38,085 nucleotides of DNA from a virus. Positions 6,041-37,767 of the stretch are shown piece by piece (position 1 is the first letter of the stretch; every line of letters begins with the position of its first letter). The translations under genes and the position numbers were made by a program. The stretch is from IMG/VR virus record IMGVR_UViG_3300050014_000198, positions 1-38,085 of that record. One strand, given 5' to 3'. The notes under the pieces are model-generated. The model made no database searches. It was not told where the DNA came from and saw only the letters and a program-made list of their open reading frames with translations.

Positions 6041-6048
6041 ATGCTTAC

Positions 6049-6076
6049 ACTATACAGACTTTCTGTTGGATGTCAA
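6049..6076 (-). promoter_or_regulatory. Promoter for gene 5735-6040, near-leaderless
   Basis: TTGACA (6071-6076), 16-nt spacer, TATAGT (6049-6054), 8 nt to the ATG at 6040. It begins two bases after the AAA+ gene's stop. Confidence 0.8.
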
Positions 6077-6077
6077 A

Positions 6078-8009: not shown

Positions 8010-8954
8010 TTAATCAAATAAAGAACTGACACTTTCATTGTTATGAATAGAAGTAATTGCGTCACTAAATACAGGAGCAACATCCACTTCTGTCCAACAC
8101 GAAGATGATAAATTTGTATTGGTTGTATTAGACATAAAAAACTCAGTAATAATACCCGCAGCAATTGCATCTTTTATTCTATTTATTCCAATTACAGTCA
8201 ATGCAGAATGGGTGACTGCACAATAAATCTGTTTTGCACCTTGTTTCTCACATTCCTTTGCTGCTTCAATTAATGTTCCAGCAGATTCAGTTAAATCATC
8301 AAGAATAAGAACATTTTTATCTTTAACGTTACCAACAAACTGCATTACTTTGACTTCAGTATCATTATTCCGTTTTTTAGCAATAAACGCAAAATCAGCG
8401 TTAATTTTTTCTGCAAAAGAACTAGAACGTTTAACAGATCCAATGTCTGGAGCAACAACTACATCAATATTCTTATTCTTAAGTGCCTTTACCAATGTAG
8501 GACGAAATTGTAAACAATCAATTGGAAGGTTGGTAAATCCTGCAATTTGTTGAGCGTGCAAATCCATTGTCAAAATACGATTAATACCCGATGCAGCCAA
8601 AATATCCATTACTAATTTGGCAGAAATAGGAACCCGACTCTTATCTTTTCTATCTTGTCTCTCATAGAAAAACATAGGTATAACCGCAGTAATACGTTTG
8701 GCACTCGCTCGTCTAGCAGCATCTGCCATAATGAGTAATTGCATCAATGCATTATTACTATTCATTGTGCCACAACTGGATTGAATAAGAAATACATCCG
8801 ATCCACGAATATTCTCTTGGAATTGAACATAATACTCGCCACTAGGGAAAGTATGATGATATATTTTTCCGAGCACAGTTCCACAAGAAACAGCAATCTT
8901 GTTAGATAACTCCAAACTATTTTCCCCACTAAAAATTTTTAATTCGTTATTCAT
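8010..8954 (-). CDS. prs: Ribose-phosphate pyrophosphokinase (PRPP synthetase)
   Basis: Makes PRPP from ribose 5-phosphate and ATP. At 314 residues it has the normal family length. Signatures: FPSGEYYVQFQENIRG near residue 36, the flexible-loop FYERQDRKDK near 96, MDLHAQQIAGF near 130, and the PRPP-binding loop LDDLTESAGT near 218 (usual form DDxxxTGGT, here ESAGT). PRPP is the co-substrate for nicotinamide or nicotinate phosphoribosyltransferases, so this gene fits the NAD genes at 16851, 26769 and 27698. It has its own promoter with the ATG 10 nt from the -10 box. Confidence 0.95.
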   Translation of the reverse strand: MNNELKIFSGENSLELSNKIAVSCGTVLGKIYHHTFPSGEYYVQFQENIRGSDVFLIQSSCGTMNSNNALMQLLIMADAARRASAKRITAVIPMFFYERQDRKDKSRVPISAKLVMDILAASGINRILTMDLHAQQIAGFTNLPIDCLQFRPTLVKALKNKNIDVVVAPDIGSVKRSSSFAEKINADFAFIAKKRNNDTEVKVMQFVGNVKDKNVLILDDLTESAGTLIEAAKECEKQGAKQIYCAVTHSALTVIGINRIKDAIAAGIITEFFMSNTTNTNLSSSCWTEVDVAPVFSDAITSIHNNESVSSLFD

Positions 8955-12090: not shown

Positions 12091-12975
12091 ATGAACAATA
12101 CACCAATTCTAAGGTATAGTCAAATTCAAAATGAATTCTTGTTAACCAATTATCCAATTTATGGAGCAGCATATTGTGCGAATGCACTTCAACGAACAGT
12201 AGTTTCTGTTAGATCACGCATCCAAAAAATGAAATTACATGTTAAAAATATGTCGGAAATTATGTTAAATCATTATATTAAACCGAATAAAGAATTTAAT
12301 ATAAATGCCGATTTATTTATTAACCCATTACTCCCCGAAGTTATTTATACAATGGGACTTTTATGGGCAGATGGAAACATTCATATAGATAAAAATGTTA
12401 GAGAGGTTGAACTTACTTCAACATATCCAGATGGAGACGAGTTTTATAAAATTATGTCATCATATGGAAAATGGAACTATTATAAATACAATAAACAACA
12501 CAAGAATTATAAACATCTTAAACCAAGAATTATAATTAAAACAAACAATAGACCGTTAACAACATTTTTTTCATTATATGATTACAAATCAAAATCTGTA
12601 AACTCTGCGGATAAAATATTAAACATTATACCAACACATTTACATTATTATTGGTTTAGAGGATTATTTGATGGGGATGGTGGAATTTATATTAAAGATA
12701 AACGGGTTCAAATAACTATTTCTGGACCATATGAACAATCGTGGAATTATTTAACTTCAATGTTAACCAACGTTGGAGTAACATTTCATTTATATCGTAG
12801 AATTTCTAACAAAAATCATAAGTGTTCATATATTCAGATTAATGGTGCAAAAAATTCTTCCAAATTTTTATCATACATTTATAAAAATGCAGAAACGGAT
12901 AAAATTTATTTAACAAGAAAATATAAAAAATGGAAACAATTAAAACAACATTATCAATTAGATAACAATGTATAA
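12091..12975 (+). CDS. LAGLIDADG homing endonuclease
   Basis: A 294-residue protein with two LAGLIDADG helices: YTMGLLWADGNIH near residue 88 and YWFRGLFDGDGGIY near 191, the usual spacing of a single-chain two-domain enzyme. The N-terminal about 60 residues (ILRYSQIQNEFLLTNY, then TVVSVRSRIQKMKL) look like a helix-turn-helix targeting segment. It is free-standing, with no intron or intein signs, and runs opposite to most genes. Its AT content appears high even for this genome. Such genes copy themselves into homing sites during mixed infection. Confidence 0.9.
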   Translation: MNNTPILRYSQIQNEFLLTNYPIYGAAYCANALQRTVVSVRSRIQKMKLHVKNMSEIMLNHYIKPNKEFNINADLFINPLLPEVIYTMGLLWADGNIHIDKNVREVELTSTYPDGDEFYKIMSSYGKWNYYKYNKQHKNYKHLKPRIIIKTNNRPLTTFFSLYDYKSKSVNSADKILNIIPTHLHYYWFRGLFDGDGGIYIKDKRVQITISGPYEQSWNYLTSMLTNVGVTFHLYRRISNKNHKCSYIQINGAKNSSKFLSYIYKNAETDKIYLTRKYKKWKQLKQHYQLDNNV

Positions 12976-16424: not shown

Positions 16425-16854
16425 TCCATTCTCCTATAGATATAAGTTCATTTTTAATAAGTTTCCAATCAGTCTTTGGTTCAAACCCTGCTCGGTCATC
16501 AATCAATACATTAAAATAGAATTTCTTCGAAAAGTCACTTCTCTCAGTATCCTGAGCATGTGAATTGCTATTGAGATAATCAAAATAAATTCCATTATCA
16601 TCTAACCAAAAAAATACATTTATAATTCGTTTAATAGGAGTACTGGTCCATAAAATCATTATAATATCTTTACGCCTAGACATCCACTGAAGGACTTCTT
16701 TGGCATATGGATAGAATACCAGTTTCTCAGTCTTATCTTTGGATGTTTTACCACTTGGAATGATAGTACCGTGAAGGTCAATACAGAAGTAAACTTCTGG
16801 CCAACCCCGTTCTTTCTTCATTTCAAATGTTTTTCTAATATTAAAAATATTCAT
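16393..16854 (-). CDS. HAD-like hydrolase family protein with altered motif I
   Basis: A 153-residue protein with the small HAD layout: motif I CIDLHGTII near residue 26, motif II ILWTSTP near 66, and a C-terminal FNVLIDDRAGF near 117. In active HAD phosphatases motif I is usually DxDGT; here the second Asp is His (DLHGT), so the general acid is missing and phosphatase activity may be altered or lost. It overlaps the NAD synthetase gene by 4 bases, so both are on one transcript. The role is unknown. Confidence 0.78.
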   Translation of the reverse strand: MNIFNIRKTFEMKKERGWPEVYFCIDLHGTIIPSGKTSKDKTEKLVFYPYAKEVLQWMSRRKDIIMILWTSTPIKRIINVFFWLDDNGIYFDYLNSNSHAQDTERSDFSKKFYFNVLIDDRAGFEPKTDWKLIKNELISIGEWNVNTPLLRKH

Positions 16855-17921
16855 TTAATATATTTTTCCAATTCTTTTAACTCTTCAGCATATCCACCAG
16901 TCAGAATCGGAGTCCTGCACCAAGTCCTCGGATCTAGATTGTGGTCATCCATATGAAAACTTAATGCATACCGTTCACGTTTCCACTGGTTCATAGAAAA
17001 CAACTTAAAAAATTTAGTAATATCTTTAATAAGTTGATTATTATCTTCACCACTTTTTACAAAACTGGTATTTACCTTAATAGCGTGATAGATTTCAACT
17101 GGCGTATAACGATTCTTTACCACCATTGTCTCAATCATATGCAATAACCAATACGGCATCAAATCATCTTCATCCGTTTGATTACATTCCTTTGGTCGTA
17201 ATTCAGCAGTCGGTTGCTGTTCATTAACATATTTTAATGCAGGACATACTCCCAATGGTGCTGGACCTAACTTTTCTGCCCAATCAAGAAACTTTTTAAT
17301 ATATACCTTTGGAAGTCCTCCAATTGGAGCAACACATCCAGCAGTATCACCATCCATAGTAGCATATCCAACCGCTGCCTCACTCATATTGCTTGTGGTA
17401 AGCAATAACTTGCCTTGCATATTTGCGATAATCCAAATTCCAGGAGCACGAACCCTCGCTTGCAAATTCTGCAATACAATATCGTTATCTTTAAAATTCA
17501 ATGGCGAACCTTGAATAACCTCTCCAAGCTTGGAATATTCTTTCATTAATGGTTCAACATCAAATTCATAATGAGGAATACCCAATTGTTTTGTCAATTT
17601 TTCAGCAGCATTTCTAGTTACTTCACCACTTTGTGCGGTCGCTTGGTATGCAGTTGTGATTAACTTTTTAATCAATAATCCTACATTAGGATAATCTTTC
17701 AAATGTGGGCAGTATTTTTTAATGAATAATTCTTCCCCAAGTTCATAAACTCCTAAACGAATTCCTGATGCACAAAGATATGTCACCATAGAAGAATCGG
17801 CACCACCACATATTAACACTTGTCCACCACAATGAGAACAATATTCTGTATCACACCCAGGTATATGTGTAAACCCAGGATCAACTTCACAATCATGGCA
17901 CTTTTTTAAATTATTTAACAT
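16851..17921 (-). CDS. nadE: NAD synthetase (ammonia-type, long NadE-like), with N-terminal zinc ribbon
   Basis: Adenylates and amidates nicotinate adenine dinucleotide to NAD+. Signatures are CGGADSS (PP-loop, usually SGGxDS), NLQARVRAPGIW, TSNMSEAAVGYATMDGDTA, API-GGLPK, PTAELRP and QTDEDDLMPY. It lacks the glutaminase domain, so it would use ammonia. An extra N terminus of about 35 residues (CHDC, H, GCD, CSHCGG) looks like a zinc ribbon that runs directly into the PP-loop. Length 356 residues. It belongs with the nicotinamidase and NMN adenylyltransferase genes further right. Confidence 0.9.
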   Translation of the reverse strand: MLNNLKKCHDCEVDPGFTHIPGCDTEYCSHCGGQVLICGGADSSMVTYLCASGIRLGVYELGEELFIKKYCPHLKDYPNVGLLIKKLITTAYQATAQSGEVTRNAAEKLTKQLGIPHYEFDVEPLMKEYSKLGEVIQGSPLNFKDNDIVLQNLQARVRAPGIWIIANMQGKLLLTTSNMSEAAVGYATMDGDTAGCVAPIGGLPKVYIKKFLDWAEKLGPAPLGVCPALKYVNEQQPTAELRPKECNQTDEDDLMPYWLLHMIETMVVKNRYTPVEIYHAIKVNTSFVKSGEDNNQLIKDITKFFKLFSMNQWKRERYALSFHMDDHNLDPRTWCRTPILTGGYAEELKELEKYIK

Positions 17922-19041: not shown

Positions 19042-19388
19042 CATATTTTAATCATGTTAGGTGCCATAGATGTTTCATCACATCCATATGTAAATTTATA
19101 TCCCATATTTTTAAGAAAGGGAATAAGTCTTGGTTCTAATATACTTTCAACGTATATTCCCCTTTGTAAATTTATTGCTTCAGTTTCAAATCGTTTAAGA
19201 AATCCTGTAAAAATACCTCTTCCTCGTTGTTCCTCAATAACTTCTACTGAACCAATATCTAAAAAATTATATAATCTATCTTCATATATTCTTGAAGATC
19301 TCCGAACATATACTTGAATATGTTTTTCAAAAATCCACGAGTTGCGCAATTGGGTATTAGAAAGAAATAATTCCAAATCCATTTTCAT
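19041..19388 (-). CDS. GNAT-family N-acetyltransferase
   Basis: A 115-residue protein. The core is VEVIEEQRGRGIFTGFL near residue 48, with the R-G-x-G acetyl-CoA binding loop (QRGRGIF), followed by IYVESILEPRLIPFLKNMGY, a typical GNAT motif B. It is short for the family (usually 140-170 residues) and lacks part of the N-terminal region. It overlaps the preceding gene by 4 bases. The substrate is unknown. Confidence 0.78.
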   Translation of the reverse strand: MKMDLELFLSNTQLRNSWIFEKHIQVYVRRSSRIYEDRLYNFLDIGSVEVIEEQRGRGIFTGFLKRFETEAINLQRGIYVESILEPRLIPFLKNMGYKFTYGCDETSMAPNMIKI

Positions 19389-19843
19389 ATAATTGCTTCT
19401 TTCAATAATGTATTTAAAGTGTTATGAATTGGTTTATTATTAAACTTTTTATAAAACCAATCTAAATATATACATTTAACTGCCCAATCAGGTCTTCCAT
19501 AAAATGTATTGCTATATGACGCATACTTACCAAATTCTACATTGGTTGTTAATCCTGGCATAGTTTTCATGTTTCTAGGTACCCAGAAAACAATGCTTTT
19601 ACAATGAGTAAGTCCAAACAGTTCCCATTCAACCTGACCAATATAATCTATATGTTCCGCTTTATCTTTTCGTTCAGGAACTATTACTTGACCATCATAT
19701 TGAAGATAATTAAGAACATCTATTGCTATGGGTCTCCATGAATATATATCTTTCGATCTTGGTGTTGGACCAGCAAGAAATATACTATGTATATTTAACT
19801 TCAGTCTTTCTTCAATTGGTTCATCTGAATAGATAATATTCAT
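19385..19843 (-). CDS. Nucleoside 2-deoxyribosyltransferase-like protein
   Basis: A 152-residue protein from ATG 19843. The pattern is IFLAGPTPR near residue 15, SWRPIAIDVLNYL, VIVPERKD near 50, QVEWELFGL near 64, IVFWVPRN near 80 and TTNVEFGKYASY near 97. This matches the nucleoside deoxyribosyltransferase-like fold that binds nucleosides or nucleotides (related to SLOG/TIR folds). ATG 19843 lies 3 bases after the upstream stop; a longer frame to 19930 would overlap the previous gene by 85 bases. It may cleave or bind an N-glycosidic substrate; not certain. Confidence 0.8.
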   Translation of the reverse strand: MNIIYSDEPIEERLKLNIHSIFLAGPTPRSKDIYSWRPIAIDVLNYLQYDGQVIVPERKDKAEHIDYIGQVEWELFGLTHCKSIVFWVPRNMKTMPGLTTNVEFGKYASYSNTFYGRPDWAVKCIYLDWFYKKFNNKPIHNTLNTLLKEAII

Positions 19844-19845
19844 TA

Positions 19846-20157
19846 TTAAAACTTTGGTTGCTCTGTAACTTTTTGTGTAACATTTTCGGTGTATTGAACT
19901 TCTCCACAATTCATACATTTTCGTTTCCACCTTTTAGTTATTTTAGTAGGTACATCAAATGGTAATTGCCTATCTACTCCCATAGTACCTGGAGGATCAC
20001 CTGGATCCCGATATCCTTTTAAAACAATATCATCTCTTACAGGTTCAGTCCATTCATGTTTACAATTATAAATTGCCTCTGCCAATTTCTCTTTGGCCTT
20101 CATATATTCCAAGTGCGCTTGATCAAGCGCATCTCTCAACTGTGGTATAGCATTCAT
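19846..20157 (-). CDS. Zinc-ribbon-like hypothetical protein
   Basis: A 103-residue protein. An N-terminal helix (QLRDALDQAHLEYMKAKEKL) leads to a possible zinc site formed by CKHEW near residue 32 and KCMNCGEVQ near 80. Small proteins with this helix plus split Cys/His ribbon (C-x-H ... C-x-x-C) are common in phages. It overlaps the methyltransferase gene by 4 bases. Function unknown. Confidence 0.72.
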   Translation of the reverse strand: MNAIPQLRDALDQAHLEYMKAKEKLAEAIYNCKHEWTEPVRDDIVLKGYRDPGDPPGTMGVDRQLPFDVPTKITKRWKRKCMNCGEVQYTENVTQKVTEQPKF

Positions 20158-21425: not shown

Positions 21426-23147
21426 TTATTTACGTTTAATCTGGTGCAAACTATTTCCATTAATAAAAAACAATCCATCGGGTGTCGCAATTAATTTCAT
21501 TGTAGAATCCAATGGAGGATTCGATATTGTTTCACATTTAAATGCAGTGGTAAATAATTCCAATTCCGTTGGATTTGCCAATAACGCACACAATCCATTA
21601 TCCATGACTGCAAAGTTAATAGTATCATACGATACGTCATCAACCTTCCTAATATCACATTTAGAGTATTGTTTGTCAAATACAATGATAAACCTATCAT
21701 ATTGACCATTCTTTTCACCTAATACCACCGTGACATATTTATCCGATTTGGCACCGACCACCCTATACCCATCCAATTGTGGCATATGTTTAGAGAAACA
21801 ACTTCCCAATTTATATGGTAATGTTAAATATATCTTTCCCAATAGATTTTGTATAACACATCCATCATACATTTCCGCTGAAGTAGTTGATACATTCTCT
21901 ACTTCATTAATACGATGCACAATTTTATGACCAAAAGAAGTAAACGAGTTCTCTACCAATTTGCCTCTACTTATGGTATAGATGGCATTGTTGCGAGCAA
22001 ACATATTATTACTTGTGGCAGTACCAATTGGTTCGCTCTTGGTTAATTCATTAAATAGTATTTTATTACTAAACCCCTGTTGTGCTGCAATAAGAGTTCC
22101 ATCCGATGAAGCACAAAGTAATGTTTTCCATTTTACATCGTGAGTTTCAATTTCTTTTTTGCTGGCATATATATGTGATTTAGTAGCAATGTAGTAAATA
22201 CCCATTATTGTAAATACACATTGAATATTACTATCGTAGGATGCTATTTCCTCTACTCCAATATTATCAGTACCTTGTATGGTAATGACTTGTGTAGGAA
22301 CCAACAAAGGAACACTACTATCGGGATCAGGAGGAACGGAACGGTTTTTAGTATCAGAAAATATAAACTTATACCAATCCAATAATCGTTTCGGAATAAT
22401 GTTGAATGGTGTAACAGAAGGAGGCATTCTAGATTTTGGATCAAATACAGATATATTATCATCCATTTGCTGTTTTTTTTGATTAGGTTTATAATTGGGA
22501 TGAGTCCCCCTATAAGGATGAATATTAACTAATGCATTGAAAGATAATACGCCCCAAGAAAACCAATCGGATAATTCATCTGGATTATATACTAAATGTC
22601 CATTTAAATTACTTGATACACGTCTATCCATTATAGATTGCATCACCGCTGATGATTTATAACTTGGAGTTTGATAACTATCACAATCTATGAAATAAGG
22701 CTCTAACGTTCCCGACGAGTCTTTAATCAATATATTTAACTCATTATAATCAACTATAAGACATTTACATCCATGTATTTCCGATGTAATTATTCGCATT
22801 TTCTTTATTAAGTCAATCATCATTGTCATACTAACATTATTATTGTCCTTAAATGTTTTAGTAAAGTATTTTACAAACGGTTCAACATTATCTATGAAAG
22901 TAGTGGTATATCCTATAGGTTTATCACCGGCATTACTATAAATAATTTCTTGTGGAGTAATTACCGATGGGTTTGGAATTAATGATAGTTCTTGTATCTT
23001 TTTTAATGGTAGTACATGTGTATCATTATGATAAATCTTAAATGCTTTTCCGCCATTAACATAAATACTTCCTTCTCCACCAGATGCTAAGTATGATTTA
23101 TCATTTAATACGAGTGTTGTTCCATTAACCTTAATCTTTAAATTCAT
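21426..23147 (-). CDS. Ser/Thr protein kinase-like protein with C-terminal propeller-like domain
   Basis: A 573-residue protein. The kinase part (about 1-290) keeps the catalytic residues: Gly loop SGGEGS (22-27), Lys37 in AFKIY, D133 and N138 in DYNELNIL (spacing as in HRDxxxxN), D154 in IDCDS (in place of DFG), and SDWFSWGVLSF near 193. The C-terminal 280 residues are short repeating strands (GIYYIATKSHIYA, RNNAIYTISRGKL, MDNGLCALL, TPDGLFFING) like a beta-propeller. Together with PP2C (23951) and vWA (24786) it matches the TerY-P triad. It has its own promoter, separated from PP2C by a homing endonuclease. Confidence 0.85.
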   Translation of the reverse strand: MNLKIKVNGTTLVLNDKSYLASGGEGSIYVNGGKAFKIYHNDTHVLPLKKIQELSLIPNPSVITPQEIIYSNAGDKPIGYTTTFIDNVEPFVKYFTKTFKDNNNVSMTMMIDLIKKMRIITSEIHGCKCLIVDYNELNILIKDSSGTLEPYFIDCDSYQTPSYKSSAVMQSIMDRRVSSNLNGHLVYNPDELSDWFSWGVLSFNALVNIHPYRGTHPNYKPNQKKQQMDDNISVFDPKSRMPPSVTPFNIIPKRLLDWYKFIFSDTKNRSVPPDPDSSVPLLVPTQVITIQGTDNIGVEEIASYDSNIQCVFTIMGIYYIATKSHIYASKKEIETHDVKWKTLLCASSDGTLIAAQQGFSNKILFNELTKSEPIGTATSNNMFARNNAIYTISRGKLVENSFTSFGHKIVHRINEVENVSTTSAEMYDGCVIQNLLGKIYLTLPYKLGSCFSKHMPQLDGYRVVGAKSDKYVTVVLGEKNGQYDRFIIVFDKQYSKCDIRKVDDVSYDTINFAVMDNGLCALLANPTELELFTTAFKCETISNPPLDSTMKLIATPDGLFFINGNSLHQIKRK

Positions 23148-23156
23148 AATTATTTT

Positions 23157-23184
23157 AGTTTATTACAGAATTATCATGTGTCAA
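23157..23184 (-). promoter_or_regulatory. Promoter for kinase gene, near-leaderless
   Basis: TTGACA (23179-23184), 16-nt spacer, TAAACT (23157-23162), 9 nt to the ATG at 23147. The -10 is the weakest of the set, but the geometry is identical. The TGA stop of the endonuclease (23181-23183) lies inside the -35 hexamer. Confidence 0.6.
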
Positions 23185-23906
23185 ATTGATTGTTTTAATG
23201 CTGCTCGTAAAATATCTTCAATCCGATTTCTATCGGTATATTTTATTCTCAACAAACCAATTTTATTATCTTCGGCATATTTAGTCTTTATGCCATCTCT
23301 ATATTGGGTATCTTTCAATTCTTCCTCCGACGACTCATATCCTTTAAACTTTCCATTGGAGAAATGTTGAGGACCATCATATTCTATTAAAAGATTATGT
23401 TGAGGTAAATAAAAATCATATTTAAAGAGATTTCCACTTTTAGGATTTCTACAGTCATCAAACATTTTTTGATAAAAATATTTTATATTATTTCTAATTA
23501 ACACTTTTATAACTTCTATTTCTCCACGAGAAATTTTACACCGTGGGCAACCTTTTCCACTTAAATGAGAATTTGGGATCTGAAAAAATGACCCATGTTT
23601 AGGACAAATAATTTCTACTTTAATTCTATTACCAGTATAACATGCTTTCTTATAAGAGTACTTGTTATTGTGTATCTCCATTGACTCTCGTATAAAATCT
23701 ATGGTAGATTTTCCAACCCCGGCACATGTGGGACATCCATGCCCTGCTAAATGACTATTTGGAGATTGTAAAAACTCTCCGTGGTGATTACATACTATTT
23801 TAACTTTAGTTCTAATATTAGTATAATCTACAAAAGAGTAAGAATATCTATGATTATGTACTTTATTAGCTTTCTCAACAAACTCATTATATGTTGCTCT
23901 TTTCAT
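23181..23906 (-). CDS. Homing endonuclease-like protein, zinc-ribbon repeats plus PD-(D/E)XK/Vsr-like nuclease
   Basis: A 241-residue protein from ATG 23906 (MKRATYNEF), matching the start of its relative at 26722. Two N-terminal repeats, each F-x-x-K/ES-x-x-(V/I)HN-x-(R/K)YSY, then K-I-x-C-x-x-HG-x-F-x-Q-x-P-x-SHL-x-G-x-GCP-x-C, form DNA-binding zinc modules. The C-terminal nuclease has a GEIEV start, YDFYLPQHNLLIEYDGPQHF and a final LLRIKYTDRN, as in EDxHD/Vsr-like homing nucleases. It is inserted between the PP2C and kinase genes. Its stop codon is in the kinase promoter. Confidence 0.85.
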   Translation of the reverse strand: MKRATYNEFVEKANKVHNHRYSYSFVDYTNIRTKVKIVCNHHGEFLQSPNSHLAGHGCPTCAGVGKSTIDFIRESMEIHNNKYSYKKACYTGNRIKVEIICPKHGSFFQIPNSHLSGKGCPRCKISRGEIEVIKVLIRNNIKYFYQKMFDDCRNPKSGNLFKYDFYLPQHNLLIEYDGPQHFSNGKFKGYESSEEELKDTQYRDGIKTKYAEDNKIGLLRIKYTDRNRIEDILRAALKQSI

Positions 23907-23950
23907 TTTATATACCATTTATAAACTACTGAGAATAATCAAAATCAAAA

Positions 23951-24727
23951 TTACACAATAATACTCGCAACGCTTATGTCATCACTATGAGTAATACCTT
24001 CTTTTAAACACTTTCGTTTAAAAGCAGATACCCTTCTTAATACAAATTCACCTTCAAAATTCTTATATCCGGTAAATTCATCAATTAATTCCTTCCACGG
24101 AATCGGTGTATAATCCGATTTTCTAAAACTATTAATACCATCGGATATGACTGAAATAACATCACCTTCTTCTACTGGTTTTGTTATAACCACTGGATAA
24201 AATGGTGAATAACATGCTACATTATTATCAAATTCTACTATTTTTTGATTATCTTTCATTCCATGATATGCTGCCGTTCTTAATGTATCAAGTTGATAAG
24301 AAAGATAATCTGGTGCTCCACTTGTTAGATTAATATGAACTGTATTTACTTTATCTTTAGTTTTATGAATAAGCACTCCATCACCAAACAAAAAAGCAGT
24401 CAATTGTTTATTCTTAACCCACGCTGCCAACAATGTGGCATCTAATGATTGTGCGTGAATTGTAGGAAAGGATAAAAACATCTGTGTGGATTTCCTAATT
24501 GCTTCTTTTCCAAACTCAATACAATCTTTTGTATGAAAATCTGTAATAATACATTCTCTTGCTGCCAGTGCTAAGAACCTTGCACCAATATCAACATCAG
24601 GAGAAGCACTGCAACCATCACATACAATAGCATATGATAAATCAAATTGTGGTTTAACACCACTCAAAGCATAGTCTTGACAAACAGTGTGATCGTGTCC
24701 AATCCAAAATGTACTATTGGTATTCAT
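23951..24727 (-). CDS. PP2C-like protein phosphatase
   Basis: A 258-residue protein with PP2C metal-site motifs: VCQDYAL near residue 15, AIVCDGCSAS near 33, LDATLLAAW near 97, LFGDGVLI near 114, SVISDGINSF near 197 and HSDDISVASIIV at the C terminus. It dephosphorylates Ser/Thr and is the expected counterpart of the kinase at 21426. The upstream neighbour is the vWA gene, with a hairpin between them, and the downstream neighbour is the homing endonuclease. Confidence 0.88.
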   Translation of the reverse strand: MNTNSTFWIGHDHTVCQDYALSGVKPQFDLSYAIVCDGCSASPDVDIGARFLALAARECIITDFHTKDCIEFGKEAIRKSTQMFLSFPTIHAQSLDATLLAAWVKNKQLTAFLFGDGVLIHKTKDKVNTVHINLTSGAPDYLSYQLDTLRTAAYHGMKDNQKIVEFDNNVACYSPFYPVVITKPVEEGDVISVISDGINSFRKSDYTPIPWKELIDEFTGYKNFEGEFVLRRVSAFKRKCLKEGITHSDDISVASIIV

Positions 24728-24739
24728 ATATAACTTATT

Positions 24740-24768
24740 AAAAGAGGGGATGGTGTTTAGCCATCCCC
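24740..24768 (-). terminator. Stem-loop between vWA and PP2C genes, terminator or attenuator
   Basis: An 8-bp perfect stem (GGGGATGG/CCATCCCC, 24746-24753 with 24761-24768) and a 7-nt loop, followed on the minus strand by CTCTTTTAAT. It lies 13 bases before the PP2C ATG, so it could reduce read-through from vWA into PP2C or tune PP2C translation. Confidence 0.65.
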
Positions 24769-24785
24769 ATTGAGGTATAACTTAA

Positions 24786-25541
24786 TTAAAACTTGAACTG
24801 ACTCGTAGGCAAAGGATTACTGGCTTGTCCATTACTCAATGCTGTGCTTGTGGAACTGATAGACTGACTGATAAAATCAGCCAATTTTGCAATGCGTCCT
24901 GGAGAAGCCTGACCAATACTCACATATTGATCAAATCCACCATCATCCTTGACAGTCTGAAGATACATATTAAGATTGACATCATCACCTGTAACGCCAA
25001 CCAAAATAAGGAGAATGGATTCGAGGTTTTCCGAACGACGAGCAGCCAATAGAGATTTCTTAATCTGTGCGGCATCCATAATACTACCAGAGTTATTTTC
25101 CCCATCGGTAATAACTACAATAATACCATTACACAAGAAATCTTGTGATGTAAGTTGCTTACCATAAGTAGCAGTAGCTTGAATGGATTCATCAACTGCA
25201 TCAAACAATGCAGTAGTTCCTCCAATTTGGAGAATGTTATCATAATCCTTTTCAACAATAGATCCAAGCAACTTGAACCCGTGGAGTTCCGACAAATTAC
25301 TGGTGAATTGTGTAAGCCGAAGCATAAGGTTATCCTTACGTGGAGACTTATCACAAGCCTTAAACACAGTCTTCAATGCTTGTTCCAATTGCACCGCATA
25401 CCCTTGAACAGAACTACTTGCATCCACCACAATACTGGCGAGTGTATATTCTGCCGCACCAAGTTTTGCAATCTTGGTTGCACTAAACTTATAATTTGAA
25501 CTGGTGTTCAACGTTTCAATATCTTTATCCATTAAACTCAT
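24786..25541 (-). CDS. vWA-domain protein, TerY-like
   Basis: A 251-residue protein. The metal-ion-dependent adhesion site is complete: VVDASSS (D40-x-S42-x-S44), GGTTAL with Thr near 109-110, and VITDGENN with Asp146. TerY proteins are stand-alone cytosolic vWA proteins encoded with PP2C and a kinase in tellurium-resistance-type stress systems. The C-terminal 40 residues are Ser/Gln-rich and likely disordered. Its promoter gives a normal leader of about 30 nt with a purine-rich site, unlike most in the window. Confidence 0.88.
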   Translation of the reverse strand: MSLMDKDIETLNTSSNYKFSATKIAKLGAAEYTLASIVVDASSSVQGYAVQLEQALKTVFKACDKSPRKDNLMLRLTQFTSNLSELHGFKLLGSIVEKDYDNILQIGGTTALFDAVDESIQATATYGKQLTSQDFLCNGIIVVITDGENNSGSIMDAAQIKKSLLAARRSENLESILLILVGVTGDDVNLNMYLQTVKDDGGFDQYVSIGQASPGRIAKLADFISQSISSTSTALSNGQASNPLPTSQFKF

Positions 25542-25615: not shown

Positions 25616-26722
25616 TTATAATAAATTTGTTGTTAATATTTGTTCTATCTGATTAAACTTCGTATATTTTATTCTTAACAATTTTATATTATTATTTTTG
25701 GAATATTCATTGCGTAGTTTATCTCTAAATTGTATTTCTTTAAACTCATGTTCTGTAGTTAAATGTTTGCCCTTTATTAAGGCACCCATTTTGTAATGTT
25801 GTTCTCCGTCATATTCTATTAAAATATTTTGATTTGGTAAATAGAAATCAAATTTCAACTTTGTGTTAGATTTTGGATTTATACAATCAACAAATGTCTT
25901 TTGAGAAATAAATTCTATATTATTATTTTTTAAAAAATTTAATATTTTTATTTCTCCATACGAACTATTACAATGTGGGCATCCTTGACCTAATAGATGT
26001 CCATCAGGTCTTTGTAAAAATTTTCCATGTTTTGGACATTTAATACACACTTTTGATTTATTATCTTTATATTCCGTGATAAATGAATAATCATATTTTT
26101 TATTATGAATAATGTTTGATTCGTTAATAAAAGAATTTATTGTATATCGCTTATTTCTGGAGCACACATTACACCCAGTACCTTGTAAATGGCTGGCTGG
26201 GGTCTGACTAAATTCTCCATGTATTTTACAAATAATTTTGACTTTTTCATGAGTGGATAAATAAACCACATTAGAATAATCATACTTATTTCCATGAACT
26301 TTCTGAGCCTTTTCTATAAATTGACTTGTTGTTAGTTTTGGAGTTCCAAAACAATATGGACATCTACAACCATTTAAATGAGAATTTGGTTTTTGTAAAA
26401 AAATACCATGTAGCGGGCATTTTATTTCTACTTTGGAAAACGCATTTAAATAAACCACATTAGAATAATCATACTTATTTCCATGAACTTTCTGAGCCTT
26501 TTCTATAAATTGATTCGTTGTTGATTGCTCCGTGCCGCCACATATGGGACATCCATGACCCCCAAGATGATCGGTTGGCATTTGAAAAAATAAACCATGT
26601 ATTAGGCATTTTATTTCTATTTTAGTATAGTTATTTTTATAAATTACATTAGAATAATCATACTTGTGGTTATGAATAATATTTGATTTTTCAATAAATT
26701 TTTCAATAGATTGTCGTTTCAT
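25616..26722 (-). CDS. Homing endonuclease-like protein, four zinc-ribbon repeats plus Vsr-like nuclease
   Basis: A 368-residue relative of 23181-23906 with four N-terminal repeats (F-IEK-x-x-x-(V/I)H-x-(H/N)KYDYSNV, then K-I-x-C-x-x-HG-x-F, HL-x-G-x-x-C-x-x-C) and a C-terminal nuclease containing GEIKIL, FDFYLPNQNILIEYDGEQHY and LLRIKYTKFN. Repeats 2 and 3 contain a 67-bp identical stretch. The ATG lies inside a 16-bp perfect hairpin that may hide it in read-through transcripts. It sits between nicotinamidase and vWA genes. Confidence 0.85.
   Translation of the reverse strand: MKRQSIEKFIEKSNIIHNHKYDYSNVIYKNNYTKIEIKCLIHGLFFQMPTDHLGGHGCPICGGTEQSTTNQFIEKAQKVHGNKYDYSNVVYLNAFSKVEIKCPLHGIFLQKPNSHLNGCRCPYCFGTPKLTTSQFIEKAQKVHGNKYDYSNVVYLSTHEKVKIICKIHGEFSQTPASHLQGTGCNVCSRNKRYTINSFINESNIIHNKKYDYSFITEYKDNKSKVCIKCPKHGKFLQRPDGHLLGQGCPHCNSSYGEIKILNFLKNNNIEFISQKTFVDCINPKSNTKLKFDFYLPNQNILIEYDGEQHYKMGALIKGKHLTTEHEFKEIQFRDKLRNEYSKNNNIKLLRIKYTKFNQIEQILTTNLL
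26258..26324. repeat. 67-bp direct repeat, copy 1, in endonuclease gene
   Basis: Identical over 67 bases to 26447-26513. It encodes the YKNKYD-type region (EKAQKVHGNKYDYSNVVYL) of repeat 3. The spacing of 189 bases (63 codons) equals one protein module. Confidence 0.9.
26447..26513. repeat. 67-bp direct repeat, copy 2, in endonuclease gene
   Basis: Identical to 26258-26324; encodes the matching part of repeat 2. The zinc-motif parts of the modules differ, so either duplication is recent with diversifying change elsewhere or gene conversion is acting on this part. Confidence 0.9.
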
Positions 26723-26768: not shown

Positions 26769-27581
26769 TTACCAATCGATCGATTTACAAATTTTCATTC
26801 CTCGCTTGGACATATTTAAGACAAAATCTTGTCCCAACTTCTCAAATCCAGTTACAGAACTACTACAATCAGTCAAAAGTGTAAATTTTTTAATATTATC
26901 ATCGCCAAAATTATTAGCAATATCAGTAATAGACGAAGCAACGCAATGACTTAAAGCTTCGCCAGTGATAAGAATCTCATCAGCTTCAGAAAGAGTATCT
27001 AACAAATTCGTATTGAGTTTTGTACTTGGATCATTATCATCAGGACAGTCCGCCATCAAAATAGAATAATGTTCACTCGCCATATTACTACCTTTAGCAA
27101 CGAAGTTAATACGACTAAAGGTATCCTTTTCCCACTTATACAATGCCTCTGCAACCACAGGAACGATACTATGTCCCCATGATCCAATCAAACAATGTAC
27201 TGGCCAGATAACAAGAACATACCGACCATTTTTCTTAAGTGTCTCCACATACGACAATGCCTTACCTTGCCATTGTGGATTAAATGCCCTCCAAACTCCA
27301 TTCTTGACATCGTCAACGGAAATCATTGTAAATGGATTGGGGTGCTCTCCTTTGGAATTAACCCAAAACGATGGGTGAGCAATATGCACATATTGATGAG
27401 AATCCAATGTACAGTGAATTTCTGTAATACGTTTTTGATTTTTATTGATAAAACTTCCCAAGCGAGTCATATCTGCTTCGGCACCTGCAACAACAAGTTG
27501 CCCTTTTTCTCCACCTGGACCCTTTGCAATACAAAAATCATTTTGCGGGTCAATTGTAATTAGATGAACTGTCTTTGCCAT
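26769..27581 (-). CDS. pncA: Nicotinamidase/isochorismatase-family hydrolase
   Basis: A 270-residue cysteine hydrolase that would deamidate nicotinamide to nicotinate. The catalytic triad is visible as D11 (IDPQNDF), K163 (FVAKGSN) and C213 (GEALSHCV); the metal site is D60, H62 and H66 (CTLDSHQYVHIAH). WPVHC near 127 is another family hallmark. It lies upstream of the endonuclease and 116 bases downstream of the NMN adenylyltransferase gene. The product would enter the Preiss-Handler route, completed here by NadM-like and NadE-like enzymes, given a phosphoribosyltransferase from host or phage. Confidence 0.9.
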   Translation of the reverse strand: MAKTVHLITIDPQNDFCIAKGPGGEKGQLVVAGAEADMTRLGSFINKNQKRITEIHCTLDSHQYVHIAHPSFWVNSKGEHPNPFTMISVDDVKNGVWRAFNPQWQGKALSYVETLKKNGRYVLVIWPVHCLIGSWGHSIVPVVAEALYKWEKDTFSRINFVAKGSNMASEHYSILMADCPDDNDPSTKLNTNLLDTLSEADEILITGEALSHCVASSITDIANNFGDDNIKKFTLLTDCSSSVTGFEKLGQDFVLNMSKRGMKICKSIDW

Positions 27582-27697: not shown

Positions 27698-28621
27698 TTA
27701 TCCCTTGTAATGATTGAACCAATTTTTAAACATACCAAAAATTGGTCTGTGAGTTGGATTTATATCAGTATCTTTAAGATCATTAATATTTTTCCATTGA
27801 ACAAAACTTAAATCATCTGCTGCAACTGGTGTTCCAGTAAAATATCTCATTGCATATAAAAATGTCATTATTTTATCAATTTCATTTCTATATCGAACAT
27901 CATCAACCACCATACTTCCAATATAAGTTTCAACACCGACTAACAAACTTGTTTCTTCCAAAGTTTCTCTCACTGCCGCAGTTTCAGCACTCGTATCCTT
28001 TAATGGATCCATAAATCCACCTGGGAATCGTAAAAGTGTTTCTCCTGATTTTTGTCCGAGCAATATTTCATCGGTATCAAAATTGATAATAGCCATATCC
28101 ACCGTTGGCTTAAAAGAAGGATATTGATTCTCCATGGCATGAACAACACCCTTGCGCCAATCTTCTGTAGGAAGTCCTTTAATACCAATACGTTTGCGAA
28201 TTTCACTTGCGGAAATAAACTTATTAGGCACCAATTCAACGGTAGGAAACTTACCTTTATATGAATCAATAAAGCTACTCCTGCTTCCATATAATACTAC
28301 TTTATTGGATGGTCCAATAAGTTTACTTATTTGGCGGTCAAGATTTTTGCTCCAGATATCATCATCAAAAACATCTTCAATATAATAAGTTTCAACATCT
28401 GGATATTTCTCCTCCAGCATTGCTTTGCGAGCAGCAAAATCCAATGGGTTTCTCATTGTGCATTTAAGATGTGCAAGACCTAAGAATACTAATACTCTTG
28501 GATGATTGGATGTGACACGATTGAGAATATCAATGTGTCCTTCGTGAAGGAATGGACTCTGGAAACGGGCGATAATAACACCCACTTCAGCAACTTCGGC
28601 AACTGTCTTTAGTTCGTTCAT
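27698..28621 (-). CDS. nadM: Bifunctional NMN/NaMN adenylyltransferase-Nudix hydrolase
   Basis: A 307-residue two-domain protein. The N-terminal adenylyltransferase has ARFQSPFLHEGH (19-30) and ISASEIRKRI (136-145). The C-terminal Nudix domain has the box PGGFMDPLKDTSAETAAV then RETLEETS (200-225). The first joins ATP and (nicotinamide or nicotinate) mononucleotide; the Nudix half can hydrolyse ADP-ribose and return ribose 5-phosphate for PRPP. The same fusion is known from cyanobacteria and several large phages. A 100-nt leader precedes it. Confidence 0.93.
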   Translation of the reverse strand: MNELKTVAEVAEVGVIIARFQSPFLHEGHIDILNRVTSNHPRVLVFLGLAHLKCTMRNPLDFAARKAMLEEKYPDVETYYIEDVFDDDIWSKNLDRQISKLIGPSNKVVLYGSRSSFIDSYKGKFPTVELVPNKFISASEIRKRIGIKGLPTEDWRKGVVHAMENQYPSFKPTVDMAIINFDTDEILLGQKSGETLLRFPGGFMDPLKDTSAETAAVRETLEETSLLVGVETYIGSMVVDDVRYRNEIDKIMTFLYAMRYFTGTPVAADDLSFVQWKNINDLKDTDINPTHRPIFGMFKNWFNHYKG

Positions 28622-33509: not shown

Positions 33510-33980
33510 TTAAAAAACATCTCCATTCTCTATTTGTTCATTCCAATGTGCCATAATATCCATTACAGTTTTGGGCAATCCTTCCCGGTCCCAGTAAAAC
33601 CCTACTTTAGACCAACCGGGATGGTTGGGGTCTAGGGCATCTGCACAAACTATATTATTTTCAAGGATTTTTAATATATCGGGATCTTTAGAACCAAGGG
33701 ATAATCGTTCTCTACATTCTTTTGCATTAGTATCATCCAACTCAACTCCATAAATAGTTGACAATGCTTGATTATGAGAAATACCATTTTTCATTTTTAT
33801 TTCTAGCACCGCAGATAAAAACTGACCGTTGCCACAAGAGTTATCCAAAAACGTTTTTTCAGGGTTAGTGAACAACTCGGGAGGAATTTTGCCCAACATC
33901 TCATTAACTAGCGGAGTTGGTGTAAACACTTCCCCACGTTGCTTAATGGCTTGTTTAGAATGTTTACGAATGTGACTCAT
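33510..33980 (-). CDS. N6-adenine methyltransferase-like protein, short, lacking NPPY
   Basis: A 156-residue protein. GEVFTPTPLVNEMLGKIPP near residue 17 and the SAM motif FLDNSCGNGQFL near 44 are typical of restriction-type N6-adenine methyltransferases, as is VCADALDP near 111, but the chain ends before the catalytic NPPY motif. It overlaps the giant gene by 17 bases. The giant protein has its own copy of the same layout (HTPMKLVNEIMGK, DPHCKTGTFL, NPPY). It could be a partner or SAM-binding regulator, or a remnant of a second methyltransferase. Confidence 0.78.
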   Translation of the reverse strand: MSHIRKHSKQAIKQRGEVFTPTPLVNEMLGKIPPELFTNPEKTFLDNSCGNGQFLSAVLEIKMKNGISHNQALSTIYGVELDDTNAKECRERLSLGSKDPDILKILENNIVCADALDPNHPGWSKVGFYWDREGLPKTVMDIMAHWNEQIENGDVF

Positions 33981-36900
33981 TGGGGAGAAAATCCTTCCAG
34001 AAATCTTTACGAAAAGTTGCTAAAATATCTCTATTTAACTCAGTTTGAGCCACAACACACATTTCCATAATAGTACGAAATTTGGAAGTATTCATAGCAA
34101 AAGCAATTAGAGGAACATTTTCTGGTGTATCTACAATACCCTTAGCAAACTGCGTCATACCATATTCTCCTTTGTTATCTGCCATATATCCAACCGATTT
34201 TATAACCCCACCAGCAAATATAACTTTCGGAACACCAAAATGTCCTCTATCATTTTTTGATGAATACCATAATGTAGGATTTCCTTGTTTATCTATGTAG
34301 TACACACATGGATATTTAAATATATCTGTTTTTACATGAGACATCCATTCACCGTTTTTATGGTGATATGCACTATCACTTAGTATTTCGCAGTTTTCTT
34401 CACCGTTTTTTGCAATTAACTTTTCAATAACATCAAACATGCCATTAGGAATAAACTTCCACTTTTTTAAATCAATATTCCACGTTTTTCCATCTTCACC
34501 TTTAACGGTGGTGGTCTTAGTTGGACTAGTGTTTTGCCATACATACCAATCATATCGGGTTGTGGCACCAAAAGTTTTTAATCCATCATCTGCATTATGT
34601 ATTTCTAAATAATACATTTGTCCATTATTTAAAGTAGCAGTTACTTCTTCCATTCTAACTCCCAATCCCCTCCAACCAGCGGGATGAACTAAACACATAT
34701 ATCCATTATCTTTTAGTAATGATTTATTTAAAACAACAAACTTATCCCATAATGTATGACCTCTACTTTTATTTTCATTAGAATTAGCATTATAGGGTGG
34801 ATTTCCAACAATTGTATCAAACTTTTTCATATTCTTGCTAATAAATATAGCAAGTTCGTTGTCATTATTCAAGTTTTTATATTGAATATTTATAAGTCCT
34901 GATATATGACGAGCAATCACAAGATACACTGGATCATTTTCGATACCCATTATTTGGAGTTGAATATCAGTATCTAGAACTCCCCGTTCTTTTAACATTT
35001 GATGCACCCATCTTAAAAATGTTCCAGTCTTACAATGAGGATCTAAAAAACACATTCCATTAATATCATTTTTATGAATTTTGGCAATAGATGCCCACTT
35101 ACCCATAATCTCATTCACCAATTTCATGGGGGTGTGGATTTTACCTTCATCAGTATTAGCATAGAAATAACTATTGATGTCATCCTCACCCAAGTCCTTA
35201 CCAAAAGTAGTTTCAAGAATGACACTATGAAGGTTAGCAGTCAACTTGTCATCGAGTGGCCATCGTTGAATGCACCCGATAATTTTCTTGGCTTGTTCGT
35301 CGGAAGAGAACCCGAAATGTTCCACAAACAGCATGAATGCTTTTGGGTTGGTCTTGATAGTTTCTAGGATATCACTATACTTTATGTTGTGTTTCTCAAT
35401 GTCTCGCAACTCCATTCCCTTCACTGAGCAATAAATAGATGCCATGTTCAAGACACTCTCATAAAGCAATCGGCGAGCAAGGACAACTGCTTGGGTGAAG
35501 TGGTCAGTTGGGGTCTTTTCGTCATCATTACTATCATTGATGGTATTGATTGTCTGAGCATCGCTAAAAGCTGCCGTATTCACAAAATGCTTTAATGTAT
35601 CACGCTGTTGCTTGGTAAGTGACTTCTTAGTAGATGCCCATTTGACGAACTCCATGAAGTCATCCATATCTCCCATACCAAGAACCATATCCCTAATTTC
35701 AGTGCGAGCATACATTGACCTACCCGCCTTAACAAAGGACGAATAATCAGTATCAGAAAAAGATACTTTCTTCTCAACAAGACCAAGTTGGTTCATCTGA
35801 AATACATCTATGACTTCATATAACCGAGTAGCAGCAATTTTTACGGGAATCCCGGCTCGGGATTGCTCATTGATTTCACTATAGATATAATTATCAATAA
35901 GAGATGAGTTTGGTGTCAGAGATAAATCAAAAATATGACCCTGTAATTTGTCATTTCCATAATAATCTTTACCAGGAGTAAGTACCCGTGACAATTTTTG
36001 CTCTGCTGAGTCCACGGGAAGATCGTCTCTGTAGAATACCGTGGCATCAATTTGAGATACGCTAAAACTTCGCTGGGCCAAGGTCATAGCCAAAAACACT
36101 ACACCTTTACCATCGATTTTGGACCTATCAATCTCACGATTAGCAAACTTTTCTGCCTTTTTGTTGTTTGTAGCGGGAGTACCTCCTTTGGAAAATGCTC
36201 CCCACTTTTGCCAGTGCCCCATACTGTCTTTCTTTACCTCTCCACAAACAGGTATGAAGTTCCAACAGGCGGATAACTCTGGGTCGTTGTTAAGCACTTC
36301 TGCCAACTCCCGCAAATGCTTCTTTGTCATTCCGCCTCCTGCACTCACCCACGCTATGACAACCCGAATTTCTTTTCCTTTAGTACACTGACGATAATCA
36401 ATCCGACATCCTTTAAGTTTACCAATTCCGAGAAATTGTTTCCATATATTCTGATGAACTGATGCATACTTTAATGGCATTTTGTTAATCTTAGTATAGG
36501 AAAACCCAATACGAAGGTCGTCATCACCCATCTCACGATGTACTTTCTCAATATCTTGGATAATATCCTGCCCCACACTGAGACCATAGAACACGGGGTT
36601 TACGAGTTTGTCTGCCGTATGATAATTACTAGTTGGAAGACTATCAATAAAATCTATCTCACACTTATTCCTAACAACATCTAGTGTCTTGCGATACTGA
36701 GGTGTAAAAAGATAATGACTTCTGTTTCTGATATGCAAAAGTTCAATATAGCTAATACGAATAGCTAACGCCTTAACCCTGTCGCTCAGTTCCATTTTAA
36801 AATTGACCTTATCCTCTCCTGTTCCTGAGAAAATATCTATTTTTACGCCGGGCAATGCTTTTTGCAACTGTTTTAACTTGTACTGGCTCTTATCCGTAGC

Positions 36901-37767
36901 AGACCCAAAATCAACTTCATCCATTTTAATGACAGTCTTGGATGCGACGGCATGTTGTTTAAGATATTCGCAGATTTCAATGTTTTTATCTCGCTCTTTA
37001 TCCCCACAAAGAGAAACCGCAATAACCTTTTTGCCGCTTGTCAAATTAGTGGGTAAATTGACAATTTCAACCGAGGAGTCTGTGGCATCGTACATTTCAA
37101 TGTCTGCAAACTCTGCCCAAGATTCAAGTTCGGTTACGAATGATGTCACAGGACTTAAATTGTACTGAACAAGGACAAGTAAAGTATCATCGCTCTCAAG
37201 GAATTCAGACAACTCTCTAAGGGTTTTACCAAACCGAGGACATGAGAACTCAGCAATGATATCCTCACCAACAAGCGTTCGACGAGTATCAGCACGCCTT
37301 GCCTTGTTCCATGCTTGCCACAAATAAGGAATAAAAGACGGCTTCTTAGAGATAATAGCTTTCTTACATACTTGCCATTTCCATTTATTATTGATAGCAA
37401 TATTAATACAGTTATCAATCTCTTTCCAGTCTAAATTAATAAACACTTCGCTGTTAGTATGCTTGCCTTTAGCGTTCCCTTTATCTGGGTTCTTATATCC
37501 TTTGAGGCGAAGCATTTTGTGAATAAATTCATCAGGTTCGACATTTTTACCACCAATAGTTTCCACCAAAAACGTATTTGTCTTTGTTAATCGGAATAAA
37601 GTAGAATCAAATTTAATATCTCGCTTATGAATAGAAGACAAATCAAGGTCGGGTCTATGACCAAGCATGTCATTAAATCTCTTAGTTAAGTCTAATGTAA
37701 CACCTACTTTAATTCTCGATTTTTCTGTGGGTAACGGATGCTCTGGACAACCATATATTGTAATCAT
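33964..37767 (-). CDS. Single-chain restriction-modification-like protein: GIY-YIG-like, SF2 helicase, N6-adenine methyltransferase, target recognition
   Basis: A 1,267-residue protein. Residues about 1-115 resemble T5orf172/GIY-YIG (IYGCPEH, IKVGVTLDLTKRF, EFIHKMLRLKGY, SEVFI). An SF2 ATPase follows: PRFGKT at 177-182 (motif I), DEVDFG at 283-288 (motif II), FSGTGE at 313-318 (motif III-like) and AEQKLSRVLTPGK at 588-600 (motif VI-like). Then a helical coupler, a methyltransferase with HTPMKLVNEIM (878-888), FLDPHCKTGTFL (907-918) and NPPY (989-992), and a C-terminal region that may recognise DNA sequence. The order nuclease-translocase-methyltransferase-recognition is that of Type ISP enzymes (LlaGI), which instead carry an Mrr-like nuclease. 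Confidence 0.85.
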   Translation of the reverse strand: MITIYGCPEHPLPTEKSRIKVGVTLDLTKRFNDMLGHRPDLDLSSIHKRDIKFDSTLFRLTKTNTFLVETIGGKNVEPDEFIHKMLRLKGYKNPDKGNAKGKHTNSEVFINLDWKEIDNCINIAINNKWKWQVCKKAIISKKPSFIPYLWQAWNKARRADTRRTLVGEDIIAEFSCPRFGKTLRELSEFLESDDTLLVLVQYNLSPVTSFVTELESWAEFADIEMYDATDSSVEIVNLPTNLTSGKKVIAVSLCGDKERDKNIEICEYLKQHAVASKTVIKMDEVDFGSATDKSQYKLKQLQKALPGVKIDIFSGTGEDKVNFKMELSDRVKALAIRISYIELLHIRNRSHYLFTPQYRKTLDVVRNKCEIDFIDSLPTSNYHTADKLVNPVFYGLSVGQDIIQDIEKVHREMGDDDLRIGFSYTKINKMPLKYASVHQNIWKQFLGIGKLKGCRIDYRQCTKGKEIRVVIAWVSAGGGMTKKHLRELAEVLNNDPELSACWNFIPVCGEVKKDSMGHWQKWGAFSKGGTPATNNKKAEKFANREIDRSKIDGKGVVFLAMTLAQRSFSVSQIDATVFYRDDLPVDSAEQKLSRVLTPGKDYYGNDKLQGHIFDLSLTPNSSLIDNYIYSEINEQSRAGIPVKIAATRLYEVIDVFQMNQLGLVEKKVSFSDTDYSSFVKAGRSMYARTEIRDMVLGMGDMDDFMEFVKWASTKKSLTKQQRDTLKHFVNTAAFSDAQTINTINDSNDDEKTPTDHFTQAVVLARRLLYESVLNMASIYCSVKGMELRDIEKHNIKYSDILETIKTNPKAFMLFVEHFGFSSDEQAKKIIGCIQRWPLDDKLTANLHSVILETTFGKDLGEDDINSYFYANTDEGKIHTPMKLVNEIMGKWASIAKIHKNDINGMCFLDPHCKTGTFLRWVHQMLKERGVLDTDIQLQIMGIENDPVYLVIARHISGLINIQYKNLNNDNELAIFISKNMKKFDTIVGNPPYNANSNENKSRGHTLWDKFVVLNKSLLKDNGYMCLVHPAGWRGLGVRMEEVTATLNNGQMYYLEIHNADDGLKTFGATTRYDWYVWQNTSPTKTTTVKGEDGKTWNIDLKKWKFIPNGMFDVIEKLIAKNGEENCEILSDSAYHHKNGEWMSHVKTDIFKYPCVYYIDKQGNPTLWYSSKNDRGHFGVPKVIFAGGVIKSVGYMADNKGEYGMTQFAKGIVDTPENVPLIAFAMNTSKFRTIMEMCVVAQTELNRDILATFRKDFWKDFLPNESHS

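Follow-up and report, generated by a model that had tools for sequence, protein, structure and literature searches.

The 38,085-bp fragment analysed here over its full length (the window), taken from the IMG/VR virus record IMGVR_UViG_3300050014_000198, encodes a tail-fibre attachment catalyst and a virion protein among its genes and carries on its minus strand a four-gene cassette composed of a predicted nicotinamidase, a von Willebrand factor A (vWA) protein, a PP2C phosphatase and a Ser/Thr kinase. A first-pass annotation of the window had singled out the last three as a set resembling the TerY-P triad, and their open reading frames (ORFs) are indeed complete and all on the minus strand, at 24786-25541 (vWA), 23951-24727 (PP2C) and 21426-23147 (kinase). 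All three members of that set are present, but an endonuclease gene separates PP2C from the kinase, and the nicotinamidase, a member of the isochorismatase superfamily (26769-27581, minus strand), is the fourth member and the first gene of the cassette. Two free-standing homing endonucleases are inserted on the same strand: one with DUF4379 zinc fingers between nicotinamidase and vWA (25616-26722; PF14311, E 1.5e-8; phrog_559, E 1.7e-82), and a second, of the DUF4379/HNH type, between PP2C and kinase (23181-23918; phrog_559, E 8e-57; PF14311, E 1.3e-5). Only the window's virus and L003/L012 have endonucleases of this type within the cassette, a confinement that gives them the look of recent invaders.

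The window's gene order (nicotinamidase, vWA, PP2C, kinase) is found again in the related contig L003, whose kinase, PP2C and vWA are 59%, 58% and 76% identical to the proteins of the window, and in the huge-phage records LR745208, LR756511 and LR756500, in the last of which the four genes are contiguous and free of inserts. Across the stretch that they share, the viral contig L011 and the window do not differ at all, so L011 is a further record of this virus and adds no independent case. The patterns used to find loci were phage-seeded, and the loci found then served for iterating the hidden Markov models of the genes; the viral-contig profile search retained 80 of its 85 kinase loci, and another locus search 80 of 105. 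Within about 10 kb of the kinase, PP2C is present in all 80 viral loci, vWA in 78 and nicotinamidase in 77, so that an absence of the linkage of the three originally noted genes from related phages is excluded (78-80 of 80). At 95% identity these loci form 71 clusters, 68 of which hold all four genes on one strand and 63 of which keep the canonical order, with a median span of 5.3 kb. Searches anchored on the other genes recover the same set: a vWA anchor gives all four in 42 of 44 loci and a nicotinamidase anchor in 69 of 80, the remaining 11 including several truncated at a contig end. With 71 viral clusters showing the linkage and these reverse-anchor searches agreeing, a chance grouping of three genes is excluded, and the conserved unit is one of four genes, nicotinamidase included, rather than a triad. 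Protein distances are correlated for all six gene pairs, both over 86 loci (r 0.52-0.73; permutation maxima 0.17-0.24) and over the 68 viral rows (r 0.56-0.77; permutation maxima 0.21-0.26): the cassette genes travel together.

A few loci show other arrangements. The order is rotated to PP2C-kinase-nicotinamidase-vWA in L065, L079, L082 and L235, and L033 reads vWA-PP2C-kinase-nicotinamidase. The gut phage L010 (PV036457) encodes a vWA relative at 5854-6507 (32% identity over 104 aa), next to a gene annotated as a metal-dependent phosphohydrolase; blastp with the window proteins gave no kinase, PP2C or nicotinamidase match in that stretch.

The active sites of the cassette proteins are preserved, as the first-pass annotation had claimed for vWA, PP2C and kinase, and this extends to their viral relatives. 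The vWA protein, which is TerY/YegL-like (PF00092, E 4e-7), retains the residues of the metal ion-dependent adhesion site (MIDAS), namely D40-S42-S44, T110 and D146, present in 77-78 of 78 viral rows. In the PP2C_2-family phosphatase (PF13672, E 3e-10) all the metal-binding aspartates (D18, D37, D196, D249/D250) are intact and recur in 79-80 of 80 viral rows. The kinase keeps K37, D133, N138 and D154; the lysine is found in 78 of 80 viral rows, and the catalytic Asp, the Asn and the DFG-type Asp in all 80. The genome group in the table of residue conservation includes the window's own row.

Gene 26769-27581 is predicted to encode a nicotinamidase from its sequence and its modelled fold. Its profile matches nicotinamidases first (yeast Pnc1, 2h0r, E 3.7e-14), and its model, with a predicted local distance difference test (pLDDT) score of 95.2, retrieves nicotinamidase or pyrazinamidase entries throughout Foldseek ranks 1-15. 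D11, K163 and C213 are intact, as are D60, H62, H69 and H129, which we take to be the equivalents of the PncA/Pnc1 catalytic and metal residues; the fold would thus carry both the catalytic Asp-Lys-Cys and the Asp-His-His metal site. Among viral rows the Lys and Cys are present in 77 of 77 and the Asp in 73, the other four being gaps. In one case, L094 (9635-10750), the vWA shares a single reading frame with an N-terminal nicotinamidase half. This fusion was considered as proof of contact between the two proteins and set aside: since the catalytic Lys and Cys are missing from it, it appears to be the product of a deletion or an assembly join.

The kinase is less easily recognized by its sequence. 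Searched as a single sequence, it has no match in Pfam, PHROG, NCBIfam or PADLOC, and phmmer against the PDB with the kinase or the PP2C returned nothing; the family profile (48 rows) matches solved Ser/Thr kinases in the PDB, with a best E of 7e-5. The model (mean pLDDT 91.8) shows a kinase fold over about residues 1-282, which align to kinases with Z of about 19, followed by 28 beta strands over residues 296-572. Foldseek places LRRK2, a kinase with a WD40 domain, first for the whole-protein model and also returns one match to BamB, a propeller protein. The strand pattern suggests that of a seven-bladed propeller, so we describe this predicted C-terminal domain as propeller-like, the assignment resting on the strand count, LRRK2 and the one BamB match, since the structural alignment covered mainly residues 1-282. 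With 28 strands over about 280 residues in the whole-protein model, the pattern exceeds a single OB-fold in size. None of the 48 kinase rows has two CxxC motifs after residue 280, and only two have one.

This domain separates the cassette from the system to which it was first likened. In a passage of PMC11090510, the TerY-P triad is defined with a kinase fused to a zinc ribbon. The cassette shares with it the vWA, PP2C and Ser/Thr kinase classes, a single direction of transcription, and intact MIDAS and catalytic residues. It differs in the C-terminal part of the kinase, which in TerY-P is a zinc ribbon, with OB-fold variants, and here a propeller-like domain of 28 strands; in the nicotinamidase as a fixed fourth member; and in its linkage to NAD genes in place of Ter genes. 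The likeness noted at first therefore stands for the three protein classes found together and fails for the zinc ribbon and the Ter linkage, and membership of TerY-P as defined is rejected. Because the propeller-like end replaces the zinc ribbon, the cassette kinase is TerY-P-like and not a TerY-P member as defined. Of the Escherichia coli Yeg proteins, YegI is homologous in its kinase domain (hhalign 98.5%, E 3e-15), the only part that aligns, and YegL is related to the cassette vWA (hhalign 85.5%, E 6e-6). The concern that each protein might belong with unrelated families is thus answered for kinase domain and vWA; the PP2C match to PphC (YegK) is weak (46.8% probability over 48 columns). 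The Yeg genes have alkA, yegD, yegJ and mdtABC as neighbours, and no nicotinamidase is annotated in that 15-kb stretch. In its working, the unit may resemble a TerY-P/YegI-type phospho-triad, from which it differs by a fixed nicotinamidase, a propeller-bearing kinase and an NAD context.

The genes around the cassette belong to the salvage of nicotinamide adenine dinucleotide (NAD). In the window, a NadM-type adenylyltransferase fused to a Nudix domain (27698-28621, minus strand; PF00293, E 7e-12) lies 116 bp upstream of the nicotinamidase; its best NCBIfam model is NF003786, nicotinamide mononucleotide adenylyltransferase/Nudix (E 6.5e-15, below that model's cut-off), and a homologue lies likewise upstream of the cassette in L003. 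The NAD synthetase NadE (16851-17921, minus strand; TIGR00552, 83.6 bits, cut-off 63.65) is located 3.5 kb downstream of the kinase, and the window thereby holds three of the four Preiss-Handler genes (nicotinamidase, adenylyltransferase, NadE). A ribose-phosphate pyrophosphokinase (8010-8954, minus strand), which would supply phosphoribosyl pyrophosphate (PRPP), scores above the cut-off of ordinary Prs models (TIGR01251, 309.9 bits, cut-off 113).

Neighbours were counted over 50 non-redundant cassette contigs of at least 66 kb. NadE is present in 33, nicotinate phosphoribosyltransferase (NAPRTase) in 29 (28 over cut-off), both together in 26, and nucleotidyltransferases of PF01467 in 26 at E<=0.001 (25 over cut-off); among the 21 contigs of at least 200 kb, NadE is found in 18 and NAPRTase in 17. 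Both enzymes lie close to the cassette. Of the 33 contigs with NadE, 25 have it at most 10 kb from the kinase, where uniform placement gave a mean of 4.0 and a maximum of 12 over 5,000 draws; for NAPRTase the figure is 17 of 29, against a mean of 3.6 and a maximum of 11. These counts take the best match per contig, with the split matches of G026 and G031 merged and the weak second matches of G034 and G035 excluded. TerD (PF02342) and TerC (PF03741) were found in none of the 50 contigs, which are mostly fragments, so that their absence near the set, seen at first in the window, extends to the related contigs. The cassette neighbourhood is one of NAD salvage, not of tellurium resistance, and the suggestion that the phage counters a Ter-linked response of its host finds no support here.

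The cassette is also found in bacteria, one of them the cultured Paraliomyxa miuraensis (L250). The genome collection yielded 47 kinase loci, many of them at contig ends, of which 22 have all four genes, 7 lack PP2C, 13 have the kinase only and 5 are of other composition. Four of these loci, L222, L223, L234 and L237, come from sulfur-cycle bacteria, Beggiatoa and Thiomargarita among them, and have the same propeller kinase with no vWA, PP2C or nicotinamidase in the available flanks; the nicotinamidase-vWA-kinase loci with no detectable PP2C include L232, L236, L240, L241 and L244. Neighbours were surveyed in 22 chosen loci of the 29 genome loci bearing a nicotinamidase (L213, L217, L225, L235, L247, L248 and L254 being excluded), and 116 of 124 neighbour ORFs were taken; as 25 of 98 families are listed, a single TerD there is possible. 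Among the families listed, a winged-helix NrtR domain is present in 10 of the 116 proteins, NAPRTase in 2 and NadE in 2. The ten NrtR proteins lie in ten of the 22 loci (by identity to the protein of L242), belonging to Acidobacteriota, Myxococcota, Pseudomonadota, Parcubacteria and others, and for 9 of 10 proteins checked the best match is the model of ADP-ribose-responsive NrtR, below its cut-off. In a quick, unrooted LG+G4 tree of 86 loci, built without bootstrap or mixture model, Acidobacterial and Myxococcal clades fall among viral rows, and the viral and genome labels require 9 changes against a shuffled mean of 16.5. This fits repeated exchange of the cassette between phages and bacteria, in whichever direction.

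From the gene set and its order, the intact active sites and the physical linkage to NAD genes, we infer enzyme activities, a target of phosphorylation and a role in counter-defence. The nicotinamidase would convert nicotinamide, freed when NAD+ is consumed or destroyed, to nicotinate, from which the Preiss-Handler neighbours (NAPRTase, adenylyltransferase and NadE, with PRPP synthetase feeding the route) could rebuild NAD+. The propeller and the Mg-binding vWA protein would select the target that the kinase phosphorylates, PP2C would remove the phosphate again, and salvage, or NAD-consuming enzymes of the host, could thereby be switched during infection. The likely benefit would be that NAD+ is kept available through a long infection and against NAD-depleting defences. 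The cassette would then be a phage module whose own nicotinamidase links a reversible Ser/Thr phospho-switch to NAD+ salvage and which possibly counters such defences, a reading to which we give a probability of about 0.5. The phospho-signalling switch of the first-pass annotation thus stands as a proposal; its Ter framing fails, the recurrent partners being NAD genes.

Several observations weigh against this reading. The distance correlations could reflect the inheritance of one linked block with no physical interaction. NadE was not found in 17 of the 50 contigs and NAPRTase in 21 (3 and 4 of the 21 contigs of at least 200 kb), absences that count for little since the contigs are fragments; no NAPRTase was found in the 38-kb window itself. 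The null of uniform placement ignores the general clustering of phage genes, and PF01467 is broad, covering cytidylyltransferases outside NAD metabolism as well. In the genome collection the kinase stands alone in 13 of 47 loci (some on cut contigs) and PP2C is missing in 7 of 47, which means that neither kinase nor PP2C depends on the complete set to function.

A different role for the same genes is unlikely, though best placed among the alternatives: the cassette may be a phage-carried conflict system of the TerY-P-like kind that excludes competing phages, with the nicotinamidase as effector or helper and not as a salvage enzyme. A passage of PMC7699616, citing Gao et al. 2020, gives TerY-P (vWA, phosphatase, kinase) as antiphage against T7-like phages. 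The relationship of kinase domain and vWA to the YegI/YegL set and the presence of the same cassette on bacterial contigs agree with such a role, but it predicts neither the clustering of NadE and NAPRTase at the cassette nor NrtR in bacteria. The kinase also has no detectable zinc ribbon, and no PADLOC model of such a system matches the window proteins, the TerY-P content of that library not being established. It is quite improbable that the nicotinamidase serves chiefly to lower nicotinamide, the product inhibitor of ADP-ribosyltransferases and sirtuins, so that the module would regulate NAD-dependent protein modification instead of NAD+ supply. Yeast Pnc1 regulates Sir2, and Pnc1-type nicotinamidases are the nearest solved relatives by sequence. 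Parts of PMC7824862 also report ADP-ribosyltransferase and SIR2 proteins in large phages. Against this, the salvage enzymes downstream of nicotinate are present too. Least probable of all is a host take-over in which, as with phage kinases such as T7 gp0.7, the kinase broadly phosphorylates host proteins, PP2C limits the damage and the nicotinamidase is linked by operon position only: the active-site residues of kinase and phosphatase are intact, as this would require, but nicotinamidase occurs in 77 of 80 kinase loci, all four genes in 69 of the 80 loci found from the nicotinamidase, and the cassette also in bacteria, adjoining NrtR.

A phospho-switch tied to NAD+ salvage would have partial counterparts among known systems. 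Passages of PMC13232231, PMC12774641 and PMC11984713 describe bacteria that destroy NAD+ as an antiphage defence and phages that rebuild it through NARP1 or NARP2. The marks of NARP1/NARP2 are Adps with Namat, or NAMPT with NMNAT. The cassette would share with these pathways a phage-borne rebuilding of NAD+ from nicotinamide-containing breakdown products, and differs in its nicotinate route (nicotinamidase, NAPRTase, NadD/NadM, NadE) and in the kinase-phosphatase switch. With NrtR-controlled NAD salvage in bacteria it shares a nicotinamidase and NAD genes tied to an ADP-ribose-responsive repressor, and differs by the phosphorylation triad inside the operon; no NrtR-type operon containing such a triad was found in the literature searched. 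Jumbo phages carrying NAD+-synthesis genes and Ter parts appear in portions of PMC7824862, the main text of which, in a term search, contains no PP2C, isochorismatase, TerY or 'protein kinase'. The same kind of search in the main text of PMC7162821 gave no nicotin-, kinase, phosphatase or NAD, and a table in PMC10607447 lists a gut-phage nicotinamidase, the passage concerned showing no cassette. The open-licence literature searched holds no description of the four-gene unit.

The unit is widespread: very large phages carry it, on contigs that reach 619 kb, as do bacteria of unrelated phyla, and its four active sites hardly vary. A more far-reaching proposal, which we offer tentatively and hold to be somewhat short of even odds, is that of a mobile four-gene system of huge phages and some bacteria in which kinase, PP2C and vWA sense or gate the breakdown of NAD+ (through nicotinamide or ADP-ribose) and control the salvage fed by the nicotinamidase, as a phosphorylation-controlled counter to NAD-depleting immunity, with the hint that triads of the TerY-P type elsewhere may answer NAD-derived signals. 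If true, this would bring together two subjects usually treated separately, Ser/Thr phospho-triads like TerY-P, for which no signal is known, and the contest over NAD+ between bacteria and their phages, and it leads directly to the question whether the kinase-phosphatase pair responds to nicotinamide, ADP-ribose or NAD+, and whether it acts on the nicotinamidase.

Further genes of the window lie outside the cassette. Downstream of the kinase, at 19385-19930, is a Nuc_deoxyri_tr2 protein with a similarly placed homologue in L007 (6012-7229). A LAGLIDADG-type endonuclease on the opposite, plus strand (12091-12975) brings the homing-type endonucleases to at least three per 38 kb. Finally, the consecutive ORFs at 33510-33980 and 33964-37767 each match models of N6 DNA methylases and possibly represent a split methyltransferase.

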